NCBI RefSeq assembly: GCF_028435365.1
Contig: NZ_JAGTJJ010000105.1
Location: 1 to 24,122 of the forward strand
DNA: 24,122 nt
Reading direction: 5' to 3'
Origin: Polyangium jinanense
Lineage (GTDB): Bacteria; Myxococcota; Polyangia; Polyangiales; Polyangiaceae
The translations under genes were made by a program, and so were the position numbers. Shown piece after piece: positions 2,891 through 24,122 of this stretch. The notes beneath the pieces were generated by a model, which saw nothing but the letters and a program-made list of their open reading frames with translations, was not told where the DNA came from and made no database searches. Positions within the stretch are counted from its first letter, which is position 1. Each line of letters opens with the position of its first letter.

Positions 2891-3010
2891 CCGCTGCGCT
2901 GGGGCTTTGCCCCAGGCCCCACCGGGGCTGTCCGCCCCTGGACCCGGACCAGCGCAAGCGCTGGACTCGGGGTCGATGAACTGCGCGATGCGCAGTTCAT
3001 CGAACAGGCC
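2891..3010 (+). repeat. Dispersed four-hairpin repeat, copy 2 (A-arm only)
   Basis: A single A-arm with all four hairpins: CTGGGGC/GCCCCAG, a GGGGC...GCCCC hairpin, CCAGCGC/GCGCTGG, and GATGAACTGCGC/GCGCAGTTCATC with loop GAT. The spacer and B-arm present at 18687-19047 are missing or too diverged to recognise after 3010. The element lies between the divergent dppA and the lipoprotein gene at 3161. Confidence 0.85.
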
Positions 3011-3160
3011 GGTGGACTCGTTTCCGTGGAGACGTCAGCGCCGCCGGCCCGTTCGATGGCGTGGGCCGTTCAAGCGGGAAGAGCCAGTCGAGGCTCGGCG
3101 TTGCTCGCCGCCCCGACGAACCGGAGAGGGGCGTATTGCTACGGAGCGAAGGAGTACGGA

Positions 3161-3598: not shown

Positions 3599-3616
3599 GA
3601 TCTCCTGCCGTAAAGG

Positions 3617-3874
3617 CGTTTCGCTGGGGCGTTGCCCCAGGCCCCACCAGGGGCTATCCGCCCCTGGACCTGGACCAGCGCAAGCGCTGGACTCGGGGTC
3701 GATGAACTGCGCGATGCGCAGTTCATCGAACAGCCGCACCTCCGTGGTCTTGTCACGGGCCCGTTGGAAGAACTGCGCGCAGCGCAGTTCTTCCACCAAA
3801 GGTCCAGGGCTTGCCCTGGTTCGGGTCGAGGGGCGAACAGCCCCCGCGGGGTCCGGGGCGGCGCCCCGGCGCGA
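3617..3874 (+). repeat. Dispersed four-hairpin repeat, copy 3 (short spacer)
   Basis: The A-arm is at about 3617-3733, followed by a spacer of only about 30 nt and then a B-arm at about 3764-3874. The A-arm stems are CTGGGGC/GCCCCAG, CCAGGGGC/GCCCCTGG, CCAGCGC/GCGCTGG and GATGAACTGCGC/GCGCAGTTCATC. The B-arm is the inverted, diverged counterpart, with GGAAGAACTGCGC/GCGCAGTTCTTCC, CCAGGGC/GCCCTGG and GGGGC/GCCCC stems. It begins about 20 nt after the stop of the gene at 3161-3598 and fills the gap before the gene at 3936. Confidence 0.85.
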
Positions 3875-5150: not shown

Positions 5151-5348
5151 TCTCCGCGGGCACACCGCTTCATTCCGGATCGCCTCCGCTCCATTCCGGA
5201 GCGTCCTCGCCTCCGTGCCCATGTGCGTTTTGCCCTTTTCACGCGCATTTCCCGGCATTCTCCCGCTGGCATTCCCCTTGCTGGGTCTGCCTCCCGAACC
5301 CGCGGCGCGACATCCCGTCGCGTCCGTTTCCAGCGAGGTGTCTCTCCC

Positions 5349-10559: not shown

Positions 10560-10708
10560 CACGGTCCTCCGTACATCGAGGGGTCAGCACGCGTCGTGAG
10601 AGCAAAGAGGAACGCGGCGAGGGCCCGCCGGTCTTCCCCTTCGTAGCGGGCGAGCGACGCGTCAATTCCGCGAATCGGACGGTGTCCGACACGTGGACGA
10701 CTGGGGGT

Positions 10709-10806
10709 GCGGAGGCGGAGGCGGAGGCGCGTGCGCTTGCGCGTGCGGAGGCGGAGGCGGAGGCGGAGGCGGAGGCGCAAACGCAAACGCAAACGCAAAC
10801 GCAAAC
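10709..10806 (+). repeat. Hexanucleotide microsatellite, (GCGGAG)n then (GCAAAC)5
   Basis: There are GCGGAG units from 10709, interrupted by a GCGCGTGCGCTTGCGCGT stretch, and then more GCGGAG units from 10745. Five perfect GCAAAC units at 10777-10806 end the tract. It lies in the 590-nt gap between mrdA (minus) and the first tandem lipoprotein (plus), in the mrdA upstream region. A six-base period keeps frames open in every direction, so the apparent reading frames here are not genes. Confidence 0.9.
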
Positions 10807-11089: not shown

Positions 11090-11151
11090 CCTCCTGCGCA
11101 CTCGAATGACCAGCCCCCCCGCGGCAACTCATGGCTCCGTGGAGGTGCCGC

Positions 11152-12717
11152 ATGGTGCACGGACGAACGGTGCGAGACTTCTGGTGTGGTGCGTCGGGGG
11201 AAAAGCGGACACGTGGCGTTCTCGCCGCCCTTGGCTTCTTTTCCGCGGCGCTGCTCCCTGCGTGCAGCGGTTGCCAGGTCGAGATCGAGCGCAGCACCGC
11301 GACGCATGCGGACGGCCTCTATCGCCACCTCCTCGTCGGAGGAACGGAGCCCGACGGCGCGTTCGTCCTGGCGCTGCACGAGCGCGCGCCGGGGGATGAA
11401 GAGCTGGTCCTGGTCTCGCTTGCAGAGGGCGAAAAGCGCACCTGCTCGCTGGGCAAGGCAGCCTGGTACACCACGCTCCAGCCGCAACCCCCCTGGTACG
11501 GCGATGACGAGCCGTCCGTCGACCCTCGCCCGGCACGTATCCTGACGCTCGAAGGAGACATCGGGGCCAAGAGCGGGGACCTGCTCATCTTCGATGCGTC
11601 CTGCGTGGAGCGCATGCGCGTGCCCTCGGTCGAGGGCTGGTTGTGGCCGCTCTACGGCGCCCAGGGCAAACACGTGGGCTACGCCGCGCGGACGACGTCC
11701 GGGAAGGTCGTGACGATCGATCCCTGGGCCGGCTCGGTGCACACGATCGCCGAGAACGTGAGCTTCTCGACCTACATGCTCGACAAATTCTGGCTGATCG
11801 AGGGCGGGAGCGTGGTCGTGCGCGATCGCGATGGGAAAACGTTGCAAACTGCAGGCTCGGGCGTCACCGAGCTCGCGACGTATTCCGGAGACCAGGTGGC
11901 TTATGTGGATGCGAAAGGCCTCTGGGTGCTGAAACTGGGCGATCCCGAGCCCACGGCCATCCCCACGGCGGCCGCGCCGTGCAAACCCGAGTACTTCTAC
12001 ACGGGCTCGATACAGCTCGCCTACCGGGACGACTGCGCGGCCGGCGTGCTCGCGGTCCGGGACCTGACGACCGGGGACACACGCGTCCTCTCCGATAAGG
12101 TCACGTCCACGCGTTTCCGCTACGACCCTTCGATGTCGTGGATCTTCTTCGAGCGCGAGGAGCCTGGGAAGAAGCGCGAACTATGGGCCGTCCCGGGGGC
12201 TGGCGAGCCCGTGCTCGTCGGGACGAATCCGAGGCCCAACTGGTATCCTGGGCGGTCCGCGGCGGGCTTTTTGTTCGACCTCGATCACGACGGCGCGGCC
12301 GGCACGCTGGGAACCTGGACGCTGGAGGGCGGTTTTTCTCCGCTCCTCGAGAACTCCGCGGGGTCATGGGGAGGGTACACCGACCATTTCGCCGCGTTCG
12401 CGGACGTGCAGGAGGATGTCGGGACGCTCGTCGTGTACGACAGGAACACGCTGGCCGAAGCTCTCCGGATCCCGCGCGTCCACAGCTCGACCCCGACCTT
12501 TGCCCGCCAGGTGGCCGCTCTCGGCTACGTTCACGACTGGGACGACGCGCTCGGGGAAGGCACCCTCGGGGTCTGGATCCCCTACAACGGACAGCAGATC
12601 GACGTCGATACGGGCGTCACCGAATTCACCGAGATCTTCTGGCCCGAGCCCGGCATCCTCTACGCCGTGCGCGCGCCCGAACGCGCGGGCCTCTGGACAG
12701 CCTATCCGGACCTCTAG
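11152..12717 (+). CDS. Secreted lipoprotein, tandem copy 1 (propeller-like, unknown function)
   Basis: The protein has 521 residues from the ATG at 11152, which follows GTGGAGGTGCCGC with a strong GGAGG. The same start context recurs in copy 2, so an ATG seven codons upstream is rejected. The N-terminus has a basic stretch (EKRTRG), a hydrophobic core and an LPAC lipobox (Cys about 38). The mature protein is a series of short strand-rich units with recurring G-D-x-V/L and W/Y patterns (SGDQVAYVDAKGLWVL, SGDLLIFDASC, VGTLVVYDRNTL), suggestive of a beta-propeller of the TolB/WD40 sort. No signature proves this. Four cysteines (RTCSLG, ASCVER, APCKPE, DDCAAG) are kept in copy 2 and may pair. The C-terminus FWPEPGILYAVRAPERAGLWTAYPDL is also closely matched. 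Confidence 0.88.
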   Translation: MVHGRTVRDFWCGASGEKRTRGVLAALGFFSAALLPACSGCQVEIERSTATHADGLYRHLLVGGTEPDGAFVLALHERAPGDEELVLVSLAEGEKRTCSLGKAAWYTTLQPQPPWYGDDEPSVDPRPARILTLEGDIGAKSGDLLIFDASCVERMRVPSVEGWLWPLYGAQGKHVGYAARTTSGKVVTIDPWAGSVHTIAENVSFSTYMLDKFWLIEGGSVVVRDRDGKTLQTAGSGVTELATYSGDQVAYVDAKGLWVLKLGDPEPTAIPTAAAPCKPEYFYTGSIQLAYRDDCAAGVLAVRDLTTGDTRVLSDKVTSTRFRYDPSMSWIFFEREEPGKKRELWAVPGAGEPVLVGTNPRPNWYPGRSAAGFLFDLDHDGAAGTLGTWTLEGGFSPLLENSAGSWGGYTDHFAAFADVQEDVGTLVVYDRNTLAEALRIPRVHSSTPTFARQVAALGYVHDWDDALGEGTLGVWIPYNGQQIDVDTGVTEFTEIFWPEPGILYAVRAPERAGLWTAYPDL

Positions 12718-12843: not shown

Positions 12844-14409
12844 ATGGTGAACGGACGAACGGCGCGAGGGTTCTGGTGTGGTGCGTCGGGAGAAACGCGG
12901 AGACGGGGCGCGCTCGCCGCCTTCGGCTTCTTGGCCGCGGCGCTGCTCCCTGCGTGCAGCGCTGAGGTCGAGATCGAGCGCAGCCCCGCGATGCACGCGG
13001 ACGGCCTCTATCGCGGGCTCTTCGTCGGAGGATCGAAGCCCGACGGGACGTTCGTCCTGGCGCAGCACGAGCTCGCGCCGGGGGATGAGGAGCTCGTCCT
13101 GGTCTCGCTCGCAGAGGGCGAAAAGCGCACCTGCTCGCTGGGCAAGGCATTCTTTTACCACACGGCCCAGCCGCAACCCCCTCCCGAGTTCGGCGTGAGC
13201 GAGCCGTTCGTCGACCCTCGCCCGACACGTATCCTGACGCTCGAAGGAGAGCTCGGGGCCGAGAGCGGGGACCTGCGCGTCTTCGACGCGTCCTGCGTGG
13301 AGCGCATGCGCGTGCCCTCGGTCGAAGCGCCGGTGCAGATCATCGGCGGGTCCACGCCCCGCGCCTACACCGCGCAGACGACGTCCGGGGAGGTCGTGGT
13401 GATCGATCCCTGGGCCGACTCGGTGCGCACGATCGCCGAGAGCGCGAGCTTCTGGCAATACCGGCAGGACAAGTTCTGGTTGATCGAGGGCGGGCGCCTG
13501 GTCGTGCGTGATCTCGATGGGAACATCTTGCAAACCGCGGGCGAGGGCGTCACCGAGGTCGCGGTCCCGTATTCCGGAGACGAGGCGGCTTATGTGGATG
13601 CGACGGGCCTCTGGGTGCTCGAGTCGGGGGACCCCGGGCCCATCGCCATCCCCACGACGGCCGCGCCGTGCAAACCCCAATACGGCTTGGGGGGGGCCCC
13701 GCTGAAGCTCATATACCGGGACGACTGCGCGGCCGGCGTGCTCGCGGTTCTGGACCGGGAGACGGGGGACACACGCCTCTTCTCCAGCGGGGTCACGTCC
13801 GCGTATGCCGCGAACCACATTACGATGTCGTGGGTCTTCTTCGAGCGCGAGGAGCCTGGGAAGAAGCGCGAGCTCTGGGCCATCCAGGGGGCCGGCGAGC
13901 CCATGCTCGTCGGGACGAATCCGAGCCCCACCTGGTTTGCTTGGCCGCGCAAGGAGGACTTTCTGGTCGAGCTCGATCACGACGGCGCGACCGCCACGCT
14001 TGGAAACTGGACGCCGGAGGGCGGTTTTGCTCCGCTCCTCGAGAACTTCTGGGATGGATGGGCAGGGATGAAGGGCTATTTCCCCACGCTCACGGACCCC
14101 GAGGAGGATCTCGGGACGCTCGTCGTGCTCGACACGACGACGCTGACCGAAGCGCTCCGGATCCCGGGCGTCCACCGCATGACCCCGGACTTTGTCACCC
14201 AGGGGCGCACCCTCCGCTACATTCACGACTGGGACGACGCGCTCGGCGCAGGCACCTTCGGGGCCTGGGTCCCCGCCACCGGAAAGCAGCTCGACGTCGA
14301 TACCGGCGTCACCGAATCCGGCGAGCTCTTCTGGCCCGAGCCCGGCGTCGTCTACGCCGTGCGCACGCCCGAACGCGTGGGCATCTGGACAGCCTATCCG
14401 AAGCTTTAG
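12844..14409 (+). CDS. Secreted lipoprotein, tandem copy 2 (propeller-like, unknown function)
   Basis: The protein has 521 residues, the same length as its upstream paralogue and alignable over the full length with a few compensating indels. The signal region (ETRRRGALAAFGFLAAALLPAC) is more clearly hydrophobic than in copy 1 and also ends in LPAC. Conserved blocks include HADGLYR, LVSLAEGEKRTCSLG, PTRILTLEGELG, DASCVERMRVPSVE, FFEREEPGKKREL, LDHDGA and HDWDDALG. The regions that differ most are the segment after CSLGKA, the residues around 330-350, and the central WDGWAGMKGYFP block; these may be surface loops free to vary. GGAGG precedes the ATG. The gene lies 66 nt before the histidine kinase gene on the same strand. 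Confidence 0.88.
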   Translation: MVNGRTARGFWCGASGETRRRGALAAFGFLAAALLPACSAEVEIERSPAMHADGLYRGLFVGGSKPDGTFVLAQHELAPGDEELVLVSLAEGEKRTCSLGKAFFYHTAQPQPPPEFGVSEPFVDPRPTRILTLEGELGAESGDLRVFDASCVERMRVPSVEAPVQIIGGSTPRAYTAQTTSGEVVVIDPWADSVRTIAESASFWQYRQDKFWLIEGGRLVVRDLDGNILQTAGEGVTEVAVPYSGDEAAYVDATGLWVLESGDPGPIAIPTTAAPCKPQYGLGGAPLKLIYRDDCAAGVLAVLDRETGDTRLFSSGVTSAYAANHITMSWVFFEREEPGKKRELWAIQGAGEPMLVGTNPSPTWFAWPRKEDFLVELDHDGATATLGNWTPEGGFAPLLENFWDGWAGMKGYFPTLTDPEEDLGTLVVLDTTTLTEALRIPGVHRMTPDFVTQGRTLRYIHDWDDALGAGTFGAWVPATGKQLDVDTGVTESGELFWPEPGVVYAVRTPERVGIWTAYPKL

Positions 14410-14475: not shown

Positions 14476-16104
14476 ATGAGCGCCCTCTCCGCCTTCGCCT
14501 TCTACCCCGTCTGGGCCCTCGCCCTCCTCGTCGGGTTCGTCTCGCTCCGCCTCGGCCGCTCGCGTGGCTACGCGCTCCCGCTCCTCTGCTTCGCGCAAGG
14601 CGTCTGGGTGACCGGCCTCGTGCTGTTCGCGACCCCGAACACGAGCCACATCGCCGAGCGCGTGCTGCCGTCGGGCATCGTCCAGGGTGCGGGCTTCCTC
14701 CACGCCGCCGAGGCCCTCGCGGGGAAGCCCCGGCGCAAGCTCGTCGCGGGCGCCTGGATGGCCACCGGCGCGTTCGCAACACTCGGCGCCGCGGCCCCTC
14801 GCCTCTTCTACGGCCCCGGCGCACGCGGCATGGGGCCGGCCTTCGTCCCCTTCGCCGCCCTCGGCGTCGCGGCGGCCGTGGCGATGCTCGCCTACCTCGC
14901 GGCCCGCGCGCAGAGCGCTGCCGGCGATGAGCGACGCGCCCTCGTCACGCTGCTCGGCGCGGCGGTCCTCGGCTGCCTCGGCGGCGGCGGGGCCATCAGC
15001 GCCTTCATCCTCGGCATCGGCCCCCTCTGGATCGCCGCCCCGCTCATGCTCGGCTCGACCTTGCTCGCCGCGCACGCGACGCTCGGCCGCGAGCAGGGCA
15101 AAGCAAGAGCCCTCGTGCGGAGCGGCATCGTCTACGCCGTCATCACAGCGAGCGTCTCCACGGTCTTCGTCACGGCGTACGCGTTCGCGCTGCCGTACCT
15201 CGTGCCGGCGCAGGGATCGACGTTCACGTTCGTCGCCGGCGCGCTCGCCGTCACCTTCTTCGCGGCGCTCCCGGTCGATCCGCTGCGGCAGATCGTCGTC
15301 GACGGGATCGGCCGGCGCGTCGCCGAAAACCCCATCGGCGTGCGTGACCTCGCCGAGGCCGTCGATCGCAGCGAAGCACGCGCGGATCAGGCCGAGCGGC
15401 TCGCCGAGATGGGTCGTATCGTCAGCGCCGTCGCCCACGAAATCCGCAATCCCCTCGGCGTCATGCTCGCGCAGGCCAAGATCCTCGAGCGCCGCGGCGC
15501 CGACCCCGAGACCCTCGCCGGGCTCCGGCAAGAAATCGCGAACGCCCGGCGCTTCCTCGACGATCTGCTGCGCTACGGCAAGCCCCGCCCGCTCGATCTC
15601 GCCGTCGCCCCGGTGCTCGCCGAGGTCACACGCGCTGCCGAGGCCGCGCGCGCCGCGTTCGGCGACCTCGCCGCGCCCGTCGACGTCACCGGCGACGCCA
15701 CGCTCAGCGCCGAGCTCGACCGCGCGGCGCTCGGCGACGTGGTGAAGGTGCTCGTCCACAACGCGCTCGTCGCCCTGTCGACCGCGGACGCCGGCGGTCG
15801 CGTCACGATCGAGGTCGCAAGCGAGGGCGACGAGGCCGTCGTGCGCGTGACCGACGACGGCCCCGGCGTCCCCGTCGAGATCGAGCCGCGCCTCTTCGAG
15901 CCCTTCGTCACGGGGCGCGGCCGCGACGCCTCGCACCCCGGCACGGGCCTCGGCCTCGCGATCGCGGCGCGCTGGACCGAGCGCCACGGCGGCTCGCTCC
16001 GCCACGAGCGTCCCGGCGCCGGGGGCGCGCGCTTCATCGCCCGGTTTCCGAGGACGGCGCGCGTGGTCAACGCCGCCCCGATGGACCAGACTCGCGCCCG
16101 ATGA
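14476..16104 (+). CDS. Membrane sensor histidine kinase
   Basis: The protein has 542 residues. The first 270 form about seven or eight hydrophobic segments with short loops, a membrane-embedded sensor without a large periplasmic domain. The kinase core follows: H-box VAHEIRNPLG with phosphoacceptor His321, N-box LVHNALVAL (Asn429), G1 DDGPGV (460-465), F-box LFEPFVTGR and G2 GTGLGLAIA (489-497). It should autophosphorylate at His321 and pass the phosphate to Asp56 of the regulator encoded next. The stop overlaps the regulator's ATG (ATGA), so the two form an operon. The ATG at 14476 starts directly with the first hydrophobic segment. The signal sensed cannot be read from the sequence; the many membrane spans suggest a lipid, envelope or small hydrophobic cue. 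Confidence 0.93.
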   Translation: MSALSAFAFYPVWALALLVGFVSLRLGRSRGYALPLLCFAQGVWVTGLVLFATPNTSHIAERVLPSGIVQGAGFLHAAEALAGKPRRKLVAGAWMATGAFATLGAAAPRLFYGPGARGMGPAFVPFAALGVAAAVAMLAYLAARAQSAAGDERRALVTLLGAAVLGCLGGGGAISAFILGIGPLWIAAPLMLGSTLLAAHATLGREQGKARALVRSGIVYAVITASVSTVFVTAYAFALPYLVPAQGSTFTFVAGALAVTFFAALPVDPLRQIVVDGIGRRVAENPIGVRDLAEAVDRSEARADQAERLAEMGRIVSAVAHEIRNPLGVMLAQAKILERRGADPETLAGLRQEIANARRFLDDLLRYGKPRPLDLAVAPVLAEVTRAAEAARAAFGDLAAPVDVTGDATLSAELDRAALGDVVKVLVHNALVALSTADAGGRVTIEVASEGDEAVVRVTDDGPGVPVEIEPRLFEPFVTGRGRDASHPGTGLGLAIAARWTERHGGSLRHERPGAGGARFIARFPRTARVVNAAPMDQTRAR

Positions 16105-17492
16105 ACCGATCCTCCGCCTCGATTCTCGTGGTCGACGACGACGCCGGCTTCCGGCGCGCCTGGCGCACCCTCCTCGAAGCGGAGGGCCTCGTGGTGCTGG
16201 AGGCCGGCGCCGCCGAGCCGGCCCGCGCGACGTTCCTCGCGAAGCGCCCGCGCCTCGTCCTGCTCGACCTGATGCTGCCGCCCTCGGGCCTGCCGAAGGA
16301 GGGCGCCGCGCTGCTCGATGTGTTCCTCGCGGCCGAGCCACGCGTGAAGGTCGTGGTGGTGTCGGGGACGGGCGAGACGCAACTCGCGCTGGATCTCGTG
16401 CGGCGGGGGGCCTACGACTTCATCGAGAAGCCGGTCGACCCCGACGTCCTGCTCGCCGTCCTCGCGCGGGCCCGGGCGCGGCTCGATCTGGAGGATCGCG
16501 TCACCGAGCTCGAAGACCGGCTCGCGGCGACGGGTGAAGCCGGCCTGCTCGGCAGCTCCCCGGCCTTCCTCGAAGCGCTTTCCATTGCCGAGCGCGCCGC
16601 GCCGGCCGATCTGCCCGTGCTCGTCACGGGCGCGTCGGGCACCGGGAAAGAGCTCTTCGCCCGGCGCGTGCATGCGCGGAGCCGCCGCCGCGAGGGGCCG
16701 TTCGTGGCCGTCAATTGCGGGGCGCTCACGCCTTCGCTGCTCGAATCGACGCTCTTCGGCCACAAGAAAGGCGCGTTCACGGGCGCCATCGCGGACGGGC
16801 GTGGCCTCTTCGTCGAGGCGGACGGCGGAACGCTGTTCCTCGACGAGATCGGCGACCTCGAGCTCGCGCTCCAGGTCAAACTCCTCCGCGCGCTCGAATC
16901 GGGCGAGGTGTTGCCCGTGGGCGCCGGAAAACCGGTCCGCGTCGACGTCCGTATCGTGTCGGCGACGCATCGGCCGCTGGAACAGATGGTCCGGAGCAGC
17001 ACCTTCCGCGAGGACCTCTACTGGCGCATCCGGGGGATCGAAATCACGCTGCCGAGCCTCGTCGATCGGACCGGGGATCTCGCGGTCCTGGCGCAACACT
17101 TCCTCAACGAGGCGCGGGCGCTCGTGCCGGGCGCCGGGCCCACGACGCTGTCGAAAGAGGCCCTTCGGCGGCTCGAAGACCACGATTGGCCGGGCAACCT
17201 GCGCGAGCTGCGGCACGAGATGCAGCGGGCCCTCGTGATGGCGGCCGGCCGCTCGGAGATCCTCGAAGCGGACCTCTCCCCGGCGCTCCGTCGCTCACGG
17301 TCGGCGGCGGCCGTCGAGGCGCCCGCGGAGGACACGTCGCTCACGCTGGAGCAGAAGATCGAGCGCCTGGAGCGCGCGGAGATCACGCGCGCCCTCGCGG
17401 AATGCCAGGGCAACCGGAGCCAGGCCGCGCAGCGGCTCGGGCTGTCACGCCAGGGCCTCTTGAACAAGCTGGATCGGTACGGCTTGCGCTGA
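16101..17492 (+). CDS. NtrC-family sigma-54 activator (response regulator)
   Basis: The protein has 463 residues in REC, AAA+ and Fis-type HTH order. The receiver has the acidic pocket VVDDDAG (12-14), phosphoacceptor Asp56 (LVLLDLMLPP), Thr/Ser in VVSGTGE and Lys110 in FIEKPV. The AAA+ domain has Walker A GASGTGKE (177-184), the sigma-54 contact loop GAFTGA (224-229), Walker B GGTLFLDEIGD (242-252) and later FREDLYWRI and WPGNLREL. The C-terminal helix-turn-helix is LAECQGNRSQAAQRLGLSRQGLLNKL. The exact GAFTGA loop means it should remodel the sigma-54 holoenzyme. It shares an ATGA overlap with the kinase. Its likely targets are the two sigma-54 promoters 500-700 bp downstream, which have paired dyads suited to a dimeric Fis-type DNA-binding domain. 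Confidence 0.95.
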   Translation: MNRSSASILVVDDDAGFRRAWRTLLEAEGLVVLEAGAAEPARATFLAKRPRLVLLDLMLPPSGLPKEGAALLDVFLAAEPRVKVVVVSGTGETQLALDLVRRGAYDFIEKPVDPDVLLAVLARARARLDLEDRVTELEDRLAATGEAGLLGSSPAFLEALSIAERAAPADLPVLVTGASGTGKELFARRVHARSRRREGPFVAVNCGALTPSLLESTLFGHKKGAFTGAIADGRGLFVEADGGTLFLDEIGDLELALQVKLLRALESGEVLPVGAGKPVRVDVRIVSATHRPLEQMVRSSTFREDLYWRIRGIEITLPSLVDRTGDLAVLAQHFLNEARALVPGAGPTTLSKEALRRLEDHDWPGNLRELRHEMQRALVMAAGRSEILEADLSPALRRSRSAAAVEAPAEDTSLTLEQKIERLERAEITRALAECQGNRSQAAQRLGLSRQGLLNKLDRYGLR

Positions 17493-17500
17493 CGGAGGCG

Positions 17501-17968
17501 CTATCCGCGCGCTCCCCTCGGCCGGCCGGGGCGGGTCCAGCGCTCGAGGATCACCGCCGCGACGAGCGCGAACGGTGCGAGGGACGGGGTGAGCACGAGG
17601 CCCATCACGAACCCGAACCACGCCCCCTGCAGGGGCTCGCCCTCCCACAGGAACAGGAGCGCGAACGTCACGGCCATCACCCCGAAGTAGCCGAAAACCG
17701 CAGCCCCGGCGAGCGTGAGGGTGCGTGCCTTGCGGAGGTCTCGGGCCAGCGCGCCGAGCAGCCCTCCGACGAGCGCCGCGGGCAGGAGTGCGGCCAGCAG
17801 GATGCGCCCCAGGAACGAGACCGTCTGCTGGTGCTCAGCCCTATCCGCGCCGACGGTGTCTCCGTACGAGAAGGTCCACAGGGCATAAAAGACGAGGTAG
17901 GCCACGAGCGTCGCCACGCCGAGCGCGACTCCCTTCCAGACCTCCGACGTGACACGAATTCGTCCCAC
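17501..17968 (-). CDS. Small multi-pass membrane protein, predicted sigma-54 target
   Basis: The protein has 155 residues from a GTG at 17968, chosen because GGGAGG lies 4-5 nt upstream and the hydrophobic part starts soon after; the frame is open further, to an ATG at 18043, but that would begin upstream of the predicted transcription start. About four membrane segments are seen: GVALGVATLVAYLVFYALW, ILLAALLPAALVGGLLGAL, LTLAGAAVFGYFGVMAVTFALLFLW and GFVMGLVLTPSLAPFALVAAVI. The tail is basic (ERWTRPGRPRG). There is no family I recognise. It ends 8 bp from the convergent stop of the regulator gene. A consensus sigma-54 promoter (18005-18019) places the mRNA start at about 17993, a 25-nt leader containing the Shine-Dalgarno sequence. 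Confidence 0.82.
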   Translation of the reverse strand: MGRIRVTSEVWKGVALGVATLVAYLVFYALWTFSYGDTVGADRAEHQQTVSFLGRILLAALLPAALVGGLLGALARDLRKARTLTLAGAAVFGYFGVMAVTFALLFLWEGEPLQGAWFGFVMGLVLTPSLAPFALVAAVILERWTRPGRPRGARG

Positions 17969-18004
17969 GGTTCCTCCCAGGTTCCTTTTGCCCCGCGGCG
18001 CATC

Positions 18005-18019
18005 GCAAAGGCAGTGCCA
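18005..18019 (-). promoter_or_regulatory. Sigma-54 promoter (-24/-12), toward 17968
   Basis: The minus strand reads TGGCACTGCCTTTGC. The -24 box TGGCAC and -12 box TTGC match the consensus at every core position with exactly ten bases between GG and GC. The expected start is about 17993, upstream of the Shine-Dalgarno sequence and GTG at 17968. An NtrC-family activator gene is adjacent and dyads lie 40-80 bp upstream. Confidence 0.8.
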
Positions 18020-18059
18020 CGCCGGTTCTTCCGAGATTCGCAAGCGAGCCGGGCCGCGA

Positions 18060-18097
18060 TGTCCAGCCGTTGGAGGGAGGTGTCCACGCGCTGGACA
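18060..18097. promoter_or_regulatory. Predicted enhancer: two tandem TGTCCA-N5-TGGACA dyads
   Basis: Site 2 (18081-18097) is TGTCCACGCGCTGGACA, with perfect 6-bp arms around five bases. Site 1 (18060-18076) is TGTCCAGCCGTTGGAGG, with the same left arm and four of six right-arm bases. The centres are 21 bp apart, two helical turns, so both sites face the same side of the DNA. The pair lies between the two outward-facing sigma-54 promoters. It is the best candidate binding site for the regulator encoded at 16101-17492; that link is inferred. Confidence 0.6.
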
Positions 18098-18161
18098 GTC
18101 GAGCTTGACGGCAGGTCGCGTGGAGAGCGGCTGGGCCGCGGCGCGCGGCCTCGGAGCGGGT

Positions 18162-18176
18162 TGGCATCACGCTTGC
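18162..18176 (+). promoter_or_regulatory. Sigma-54 promoter (-24/-12), toward 18191
   Basis: The sequence reads TGGCATCACGCTTGC, with TGGCAT at -24 and TTGC at -12, again with ten bases between GG and GC. The predicted start is about 18188, only 3 nt before the ATG at 18191, so the message would be essentially leaderless. No Shine-Dalgarno sequence is seen, which fits. The match is slightly weaker than the minus-strand promoter (T for C in the -24 box). Confidence 0.65.
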
Positions 18177-18190
18177 GATGTCGACGCGGC

Positions 18191-18685
18191 ATGACGTCCA
18201 CGAAGCCCCACGACGCTCTCCCCCTCGGAACCCTTCTCGGCCGCGCCGTCACGGTGGTCTTCGCCGTGGCGACGCTCCTCCTCGTGCTCGTGATGTTCGA
18301 CTTCCGCATCCCGTACAAGCCCGGCTTCGGCCTGATCATCGTGGCCACGCTGCTCGGCCTCGGGGCCTCGGTATGGTGGCTCGGGGGACTCGCGGGGCGC
18401 GCCATCGAGCAGCGCGGGGGCGCGGCCGTGGCATGGGGTCCACTCGCCGGCCTCGCAACCCTCGCGATCACCGCATTTTCACTCGCGTTGGCGAGCGCCG
18501 CGCAGATCGAGCACGACCGCGGATTCAGCCTGGCGCAGGCGGCGTGGGATTATTTCGGCAAGCCGTTCGTGTTCACGATGGCCTACGGAGCCATTCCGGC
18601 CGCGCTGATCGGGCTTCTCTGCGCCGGCGCGATTCACGGCGCCATCACCCTGATGCGCAGGGCGCCCCTCGAGGACGCGCCCTGA
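18191..18685 (+). CDS. Small multi-pass membrane protein, predicted sigma-54 target
   Basis: The protein has 164 residues from the ATG at 18191 with about four membrane segments: AVTVVFAVATLLLVLVMFDF, FGLIIVATLLGLGASVWWLGG, GPLAGLATLAITAFSLALASA and AYGAIPAALIGLLCAGAIHGAI. A soluble-looking loop of some 30 residues between segments 3 and 4 (AQIEHDRGFSLAQAAWDYFGKPF) holds most of the charged and aromatic residues. There is no family I recognise and no obvious sequence relation to its divergent neighbour at 17501-17968, although the size and topology are alike. An overlapping ATG at 18178 opens only another frame without a membrane pattern. Repeat copy 4 begins 2 nt after its stop. Confidence 0.82.
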   Translation: MTSTKPHDALPLGTLLGRAVTVVFAVATLLLVLVMFDFRIPYKPGFGLIIVATLLGLGASVWWLGGLAGRAIEQRGGAAVAWGPLAGLATLAITAFSLALASAAQIEHDRGFSLAQAAWDYFGKPFVFTMAYGAIPAALIGLLCAGAIHGAITLMRRAPLEDAP

Positions 18686-18686
18686 G

Positions 18687-19047
18687 AGGCGCTTCGCTGG
18701 GGCGTTGCCCCAGGCCCCACCAGGGGCTATCCGCCCCTGGACCCGGACCAGCGCAAGCGCTGGACCCGGGGTCGATGAACTGCGCAACGCGCAGTTCATC
18801 GAACAGGCCGAGTCAAGACCAGCGACGACCCTGCCCATCAAGACCGCGGCGCTGACGATTCAACGGGCCACGTGCCCGTCGCCAGCGTGCAACGCACCTC
18901 CATGGTCTTGCCACCGGCCTGTGGGAAGAACTGCGCATCGCGCAGTTCTTCCACCACGAGTCCAGGGCTTGCCCTGGTTTGGGTCGAGGGGCGAACAGCC
19001 CCCGCGGGGCCCGGGGCAGCGCCCCGGCGCAGCGCCCCGGCGCGGCG
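18687..19047 (+). repeat. Dispersed four-hairpin repeat, copy 4 (full-length reference copy)
   Basis: The A-arm (about 18690-18806) has four perfect hairpins: 18697-18713 (CTGGGGC/GCCCCAG), 18720-18740 (CCAGGGGC/GCCCCTGG), 18748-18763 (CCAGCGC/GCGCTGG) and 18774-18800 (GATGAACTGCGC/GCGCAGTTCATC). A spacer of about 120 nt follows. The B-arm (about 18928-19047) is the A-arm inverted and diverged: GGAAGAACTGCGC/GCGCAGTTCTTCC, CCAGGGC/GCCCTGG, GGGGCG...CAGCCCC and GGGGC/GCCCC. The element exactly fills the gap between two convergent genes (stops at 18685 and 19058), where it could end transcription from both sides. Confidence 0.92.
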
Positions 19048-23969: not shown

Positions 23970-23990
23970 AGCAATTGGTCTCATCTGGGA

Positions 23991-24122
23991 GCCGCTTCGC
24001 TGGGGCTTTGCCCCAGGCCCCACCGGGGCTATCCGCCCCTGGACCCGGACCAGCGCAAGCGCTGGACCCGGGGTCGATGAACTGCGCGATGCGCAGTTCA
24101 TCGAACAGGCCGAGTCAAGACC
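23991..24122 (+). repeat. Dispersed four-hairpin repeat, copy 5 (cut by window end)
   Basis: A complete A-arm with the four stems (CTGGGGC/GCCCCAG, GGGGC/GCCCC, CCAGCGC/GCGCTGG, GATGAACTGCGC/GCGCAGTTCATC) and the start of the spacer, AGGCCGAGTCAAGACC, identical to copy 4. It starts 21 nt after the stop of the M4 protease gene. Confidence 0.9.

Follow-up and report, generated by a model that had tools for sequence, protein, structure and literature searches.

A predicted two-component sigma-54 switch with a shared operator and divergent membrane-protein targets in Polyangium jinanense

DesK-DesR pairs a HisKA_3-type kinase with a NarL-type regulator, and control of a desaturase by a two-component system is already well known from it. 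In Bacillus subtilis, the polytopic kinase DesK, which has five transmembrane helices, controls a desaturase gene, and the abstracts describing this system do not name sigma-54 (PMC8301901, PMC3996569). Among myxobacteria, the available text on NmpRSTU of Myxococcus xanthus describes the NtrC-like regulator NmpR, which acts on a few target operons for oxygen utilisation through paired GCGCA-N5-TGCGC dyads (5-nt centre) and sigma-54 promoters, within a multi-component relay whose first kinase binds heme (PMC11841059). In the same species the enhancer-binding protein Nla28 recognizes repeat sites, with the half site CT(C/G)CG(C/G)AG, upstream of the sigma-54 promoters of development and natural-product genes, according to the available parts of its report (PMC7910581). 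Here we describe a locus of Polyangium jinanense, located on a stretch of 24,122 nucleotides (contig NZ_JAGTJJ010000105.1, referred to as the window in the rest of the text), in which genes coding for a sensor histidine kinase and an NtrC-type activator adjoin two divergent genes coding for small membrane proteins. With a probability of about 0.78, we read the locus from its sequence as a two-component sigma-54 switch with a shared operator, outputs that differ between relatives and a role in the membrane or envelope.

The kinase gene (14476-16104, plus strand) codes for a protein in which Pfam recognizes only HisKA (PF00512) and HATPase families, without heme or PAS domain, preceded by a hydrophobic N-terminal region with about 7 to 8 predicted membrane segments as we read them from a hydropathy plot. 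The activator gene (16101-17492, plus strand) overlaps the end of the kinase gene by 4 nt, and its product exceeds the Pfam cut-offs for PF00072, PF00158 and PF02954, thereby combining a receiver, an AAA+ domain carrying the GAFTGA loop and a Fis-type helix-turn-helix. By these domains and GAFTGA it is an NtrC-family sigma-54 activator, activation itself being predicted. The best NCBIfam match of the regulator, over its full length (383.4 bits), is to the PrsK-PrsR pair of XrtA/PEP-CTERM systems (TIGR02916, TIGR02915); however, we rejected that identity, as the regulator remains under the cut-off of 502.6 bits and the kinase reaches 54.2 bits against 300.

The divergent gap beyond the activator gene contains the -24/-12 box of target A, TGGCACTGCCTTTGC (18005-18019, minus strand), an imperfect activator dyad 1, TGTCCA-N5-TGGAGG (18060-18076, two mismatches), a perfect dyad 2, TGTCCACGCGCTGGACA (18081-18097), located 21 bp from dyad 1, and the -24/-12 box of target B, TGGCATCACGCTTGC (18162-18176, plus strand), 14 nt ahead of the target B ATG. 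Scored against the sigma-54 consensus TGGCAC-N5-TTGC with GG-N10-GC, the two boxes match 10/10 and 9/10 of the fixed letters, and only one other site of at least 9/10, at 5267, occurs on either strand of the whole window when GG and GC are held fixed. Every element that an earlier note, made from the sequence alone, had placed here (kinase, activator, divergent membrane-protein genes, outward boxes and paired dyads) was found where it had been reported. Parts and geometry fit classical NtrC-type enhancer action.

Target A (17501-17968, minus strand) is a 155-aa membrane protein most likely starting at a GTG at 17968 preceded by GGGAGG; our searches used 17504-17974, whose N-terminus is two codons too long. 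Its predicted structure has four helices (mean pLDDT 83.8) and finds no convincing fold match (best Foldseek E value 0.28). Target B (18191-18685, plus strand) is a 164-aa membrane protein, predicted with low confidence to form four helices (mean pLDDT 53.6). Neither target exceeds the cut-off of any Pfam or NCBIfam family, so that the claim that neither can be named holds for these libraries, and no homology between the two was detected (probability 1.5%). At E values up to 0.001, we found 12 homologues of target A and 6 of target B, with Polyangium among the sources and the protein itself or a near-identical one included. An acyltransferase-like Pfam family matches 7 of 13 target A members at E values up to 0.05 (best 4.9e-5), but it was not accepted for target A, as the window protein, with 14.5 bits, falls short of the cut-off of 31.

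In Polyangium sp. 15x6 (locus L001, genome G001), whose kinase and activator are 94% and 96% identical to those of the window, the divergent block is duplicated in tandem. Each copy has its dyads between two boxes; in the first copy these are enclosed by target A1 and a lipoprotein-like gene, named so from a signal-like start judged by eye, and in the second by target A2 and target B. Both boxes and both dyads are retained in both copies, with dyad 1 imperfect in the identical manner. This strengthens the earlier proposal that an NtrC-type activator uses the paired dyads to control two sigma-54 promoters pointing outward: a relative that keeps the genes keeps the boxes and dyads too, and the dyad tracks the kinase across genera, as follows.

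A kinase orthologue (E≤1e-80) was found in 15 of 108 genomes of the family, one apiece, while a sample of 377 genomes of the phylum gave six with a kinase match, four of them new and just 37-42% identical. The kinase, activator and YR (see below) searches scored only the best first-look candidates of each genome (13 each for the kinase, for example), and absence from them is not proof. For comparison we chose 15 of the 93 kinase-free genomes, namely the remaining five of the genus and 10 from elsewhere in the family. Ten of the 15 kinase-bearing genomes carry the strict dyad TGTCCAC-N3-GTGGACA, in 12 copies overall, and the 15 chosen kinase-free ones carry none (Fisher 2e-4, uncorrected for kinship), and a reversed control pattern occurs in none of the 30; half of the strict dyads (6/12) lie near the kinase. 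When one mismatch is allowed, there are 48 sites in the kinase-bearing and 19 in the kinase-free genomes, compared to 12 and 8 for the reversed control, so the background is real; nonetheless, 13 of the 15 kinase-bearing genomes have a dyad with at most one mismatch no further than about 2.7 kb from the kinase gene. Among four outgroup loci of the kinase, three have no dyad at up to two mismatches and one has a dyad with two. The segment GLSRQG(L/F)LNK is conserved in 14/14 aligned regulators, making the helix-turn-helix region nearly invariant, while GAFTSA replaces GAFTGA in five of the 14 (L031, L032, L035, L036 and L037), all from the Sorangium clade. The sigma-54 gene (PF04552) was present in 20/20 related genomes searched.

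We then surveyed 23 dyad sites at 22 loci, including the window, picked by strict match or by position beside the kinase or a target, for sigma-54-like boxes with GG and GC fixed, 20-160 nt away on each side. Boxes with at least 8/10 letters occupy 29 of 46 flanks in the outward direction and 3 of 46 inward, compared to 3.6% of random places (8000 flanks from the same loci), and those with at least 9/10 letters occupy 16/46 and 0/46, compared to 0.44%. Such outward boxes flanking the dyads call for an enhancer-binding activator. A second dyad-like element (at most four mismatches) lies 20-24 bp away at 14 of the 21 sites inspected for it and 33 bp away at one, and is missing at six. Nine loci with loose-pattern sites (L071-L079) were left out of the survey; a box of at least 8 was found in two of them (L073 and L078), in both cases within 30 bp of the dyad (TGG required, 400 bp, either direction). 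Among part of the further sites with at most one mismatch, an outward box of at least 8 was found at 3 of 16, each before a YR gene (four outgroup loci set aside).

What the operator adjoins differs among relatives. In nine of them, the dyad sits between a desaturase-like gene and a gene coding for an SRPBCC-like membrane protein. The desaturase exceeds the PF00487 cut-off in the two cases tested (E = 3.5e-18 and 2.8e-14), the others being identified by tblastn, while the SRPBCC-like domain (PF10604) scores 26.8 bits, slightly below the cut-off of 27.4. At E values up to 1.1e-58, the SRPBCC-like protein is found in 10 of the 15 kinase-bearing genomes, among them the nine with the desaturase arrangement, but in none of the 93 other genomes of the family; three partial matches (4.6e-22 to 9.0e-21) occur in kinase-free genomes. 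The kinase lies downstream of the SRPBCC-like gene and in the same direction in 7/9, the ends mostly overlapping or nearly touching; since the kinase follows so closely, the system may regulate itself at the desaturase/SRPBCC loci. In G089 (L034:4732-6165), a Tn5-like transposase gene puts the dyad about 1.6 kb from the SRPBCC-like gene, and the sister genome G090 lacks the transposase.

Four genomes of the Sorangium clade have the kinase-adjacent operator facing the gene of the small membrane protein IEGY, with a DCC1-like gene behind it. In six genomes, another operator faces the membrane protein YR (278 aa in L113). IEGY occurs in 23 of 108 genomes, 17 of them without the kinase, and YR in 18 of 108, 10 of them without it, so neither marks the system. 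Two loci stand apart from these groups: G389 (L121:6668-7478), outside the 15, has IEGY and DCC1-like genes directly before a 42% identical kinase homologue without a dyad, and in G100 (L071:6872-7989) a gene distantly homologous to the desaturase (31% identity) is preceded, at about 0.3 kb, by a loose dyad, where no sigma-54-like box was found.

No desaturase was seen beside the dyad in Polyangium. In the kinase tree, the desaturase-linked genomes are spread over several branches and the two Polyangium kinases form one strong clade of unsettled position; we take linkage to the desaturase to be the older arrangement, a view that the tree permits and does not prove. Regulator and operator are thus common to part of the Polyangiaceae, as judged from these genomes, with outputs that differ and with Polyangium having targets of its own. 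The description of the circuit as self-contained was too strong, since elsewhere this regulator family and its operator are wired to other targets, and the sequence immediately before the window kinase contains no dyad with fewer than four mismatches; overall, the earlier interpretation is partly supported.

The distance from box to start codon is a further common trait. An in-frame ATG lies 12-15 nt past the -12 GC at 18 of the 21 desaturase, SRPBCC-like and Polyangium plus-strand genes: at 12-14 nt in 9/9 desaturase genes, at 12-15 nt in 6/9 SRPBCC-like genes and at 14 nt in 3/3 Polyangium genes, the remaining three SRPBCC-like genes having 19, 66 and 102 nt. The starts of the SRPBCC-like genes were fixed by homology and those of the desaturase genes picked from sequence, their computed coordinates being approximate; the tally includes the L027 box, which scores only 7, and related genomes are not independent. 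Sigma-54 initiates 12 nt after the -12 GC, so that these genes would have leaders of 1-4 nt, and we predict near-leaderless sigma-54 mRNAs for them. For target B, the ATG at 18191 is 3 nt past the predicted transcription start at 18188, which had gone unremarked. The leaders of target A and IEGY are longer, with GGAGG or GAGGAG. Start codons at predicted +2 to +5 would provide a test case for leaderless translation of sigma-54 transcripts; no statement linking leaderless mRNA to a sigma-54 promoter was seen in the accessible part of PMC3616915.

Taken together, these data suggest the following mechanism. The polytopic membrane kinase would phosphorylate its co-encoded NtrC-type activator, which would bind the two dyads midway along the divergent gap, spaced by about two turns of the helix, and from there loop to the two outward sigma-54 promoters, turning on target A (minus strand, with leader and Shine-Dalgarno) and target B (plus strand, predicted leader of about 3 nt). 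The genes behind the operator code for a desaturase and an SRPBCC-like protein in the majority of the lineages found, for different membrane proteins in the Sorangium clade, and for targets A and B and a lipoprotein in Polyangium. The task common to all these outputs might be the adjustment of the membrane or envelope, with the kinase presumably sensing the state of the lipid bilayer. Because the desaturase adjoins the operator in relatives, its position suggests membrane-lipid control and lends indirect support to the earlier suggestion that the kinase may respond to a membrane-related cue. We tentatively extend this, with the odds somewhat against us, to a hitherto undescribed membrane-homeostasis system of the Polyangiaceae in which a bilayer-sensing kinase, an NtrC-type activator and sigma-54 would drive a desaturase from near-leaderless mRNAs, and in which, in Polyangium, the operator would have been detached from the desaturase and would now serve a lipoprotein and two new families of four-helix membrane proteins, which take the place of desaturation or add to it.

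Several observations weigh against the reading of a membrane-directed sigma-54 switch. In the window, the number of promoter boxes alone does not exceed chance (three matches compared to a shuffle mean of 1.26, with 13 of 100 shuffles reaching three), the 23 surveyed sites come from related genomes and were chosen after the dyads had been seen, so that the survey figures do not count as independent tests, and the strict dyad of L069 has no sigma-54-like box beside it. G052 and G101 lack a dyad with at most one mismatch near the kinase. The loose pattern TGTCCA-N5-TGGACA occurs in 14 of the 15 kinase-bearing genomes but also in five of the 15 without the kinase, while the reversed form of this pattern turns up in five of the 30 (four kinase-bearing, one kinase-free). 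The membrane-signal step meets a difficulty of its own in G001, where neither an SRPBCC-like gene (E≤1e-20) nor YR (E≤1e-10) was reported, and where an IEGY homologue is present but neither of the two dyad sites with at most one mismatch lies on its contig. On the other side, four dyads with at most two mismatches occur in the window compared to a shuffle mean of 0.48, a count reached by 0 of 100 shuffles, and boxes and dyads together stand above chance because of their arrangement and conservation; we thus rejected a chance origin for the arrangement, even though the boxes alone are not significant within the window.

The locus could instead be an NtrC-type circuit of the usual kind, with Polyangium targets unrelated to lipids and a desaturase link that reflects mere common descent of the regulator. 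The lack of any family above cut-off for targets A and B and of a fold for target A would agree with this, as would the many matches to IEGY and YR, operator-linked elsewhere, that occur without the kinase (17/23 and 10/18). However, the operator-linked genes mostly code for membrane proteins, a desaturase or a lipoprotein-like protein, with the DCC1-like protein and an esterase-like protein beside the L064 site as exceptions, and we consider this explanation unlikely while giving it serious weight.

By analogy with the NmpRSTU oxygen-utilisation regulon, the kinase could respond to oxygen or redox conditions instead of the bilayer, with the desaturase induced since it requires oxygen. NmpR is likewise myxobacterial and NtrC-like, with paired sites and sigma-54 promoters, and a DCC1-like thiol-disulfide protein is among the operator-linked genes of the Sorangium clade. 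In contrast to the heme-binding relay of NmpRSTU, the window system has a single polytopic kinase, whose Pfam content speaks against heme- or PAS-based sensing, and membrane targets; its operator, TGTCCAC-N3-GTGGACA, differs, the window dyads being of the form TGTCCA-N5-TGGACA rather than of the NmpR type. The main text of PMC11841059 never uses the word desaturase. We thus regard oxygen sensing as improbable. It is very improbable that an unlinked regulator binds the dyads while the adjacent kinase-activator pair acts elsewhere, since the strict dyad tracks the kinase (10/15 compared to 0/15), a near-strict dyad is close by in 13/15, the helix-turn-helix segment is nearly invariant and the outward boxes call for an enhancer-binding activator, against which stand the loose dyads of the five kinase-free genomes and another Polyangium genome, G003, which retains dyads without a reported kinase or activator and can be read as carrying a relic (see below).

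Compared to DesK-DesR, a switch of the kind proposed here would share the polytopic kinase and the association with a desaturase, here one adjoining the operator in relatives, and would differ by its 7-8 segments, its HisKA (PF00512) kinase, its NtrC-type regulator, its sigma-54-like promoters and a membrane signal that is so far presumed; by its HisKA kinase and NtrC architecture, the pair is not of the DesK-DesR type. The locus shares with Nla28 an enhancer-binding protein and repeat sites upstream of sigma-54 promoters. No title describing this system was found in literature searches for sigma-54 and enhancer-binding protein with fatty acid desaturase (most subscription papers being beyond reach) or for Polyangium with two-component system and sigma-54, and none matched for desaturase, membrane fluidity, histidine kinase and sigma-54-dependent; the word desaturase is absent from the main text of a sigma-54 regulon survey (PMC12316311). 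Unusual in this system are an operator common to differing membrane outputs, the connection of a desaturase with sigma-54 and the spacing of the start codons. A sigma-54 promoter is silent without its ATP-driven activator, and a sigma-54 version of desaturase control, if true, would couple membrane remodelling to such a promoter.

The lineage provides an instance of output swapping, in which regulator and operator persist while targets change, and likely steps of it (duplication, promoter capture and repeat-driven decay) can be seen in extant genomes. At the three Polyangium plus-strand genes, the ATG lies exactly 14 nt past the -12 GC even though the lipoprotein and target B differ, and promoter and first codons align as a single homologous stretch, so that promoter capture is likely. 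G003 (L070), a third Polyangium genome, retains the minus box and the two dyads, the box aligning with those of the window and of both L001 copies and dyad 1 having the same imperfect form. Target A ends there after a few codons at a dispersed repeat, which is 85-90% identical to its copies in the window and L001. The plus box is missing, with a weaker repeat match and a reverse-transcriptase frame (L070:6099-7043; PF00078, 30.5 bits against a cut-off of 29.6) next to where it would stand; a lipoprotein homologue lies about 1.8 kb away. Since no orthologue of the kinase (E≤1e-80) or activator (E≤1e-120) was found among the best candidates scored, the G003 operator looks like the relic of a lost circuit.

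The dispersed repeat, which contains an internal inverted segment, occupies 18685-19038 in the window, with more matches at 1-305, 2892-3011, 3614-3874 and 23989-24122. L001 has two matches in the interval from the activator to target A1 and another two in that from the lipoprotein-like gene to target A2, and copies also flank the relic operator in L070. None was found in 14 other kinase loci or in L041. The repeat may have helped the block duplicate and decay.

Upstream of the kinase, the window contains two similar-looking tandem genes (11131-12717 and 12844-14409), the second of which has no Pfam match at E values up to 0.1. Further upstream, at about 10600-10800, a short repeat tract gives rise to reading frames of the SASASA and CVCVCV type, as recognized by eye.

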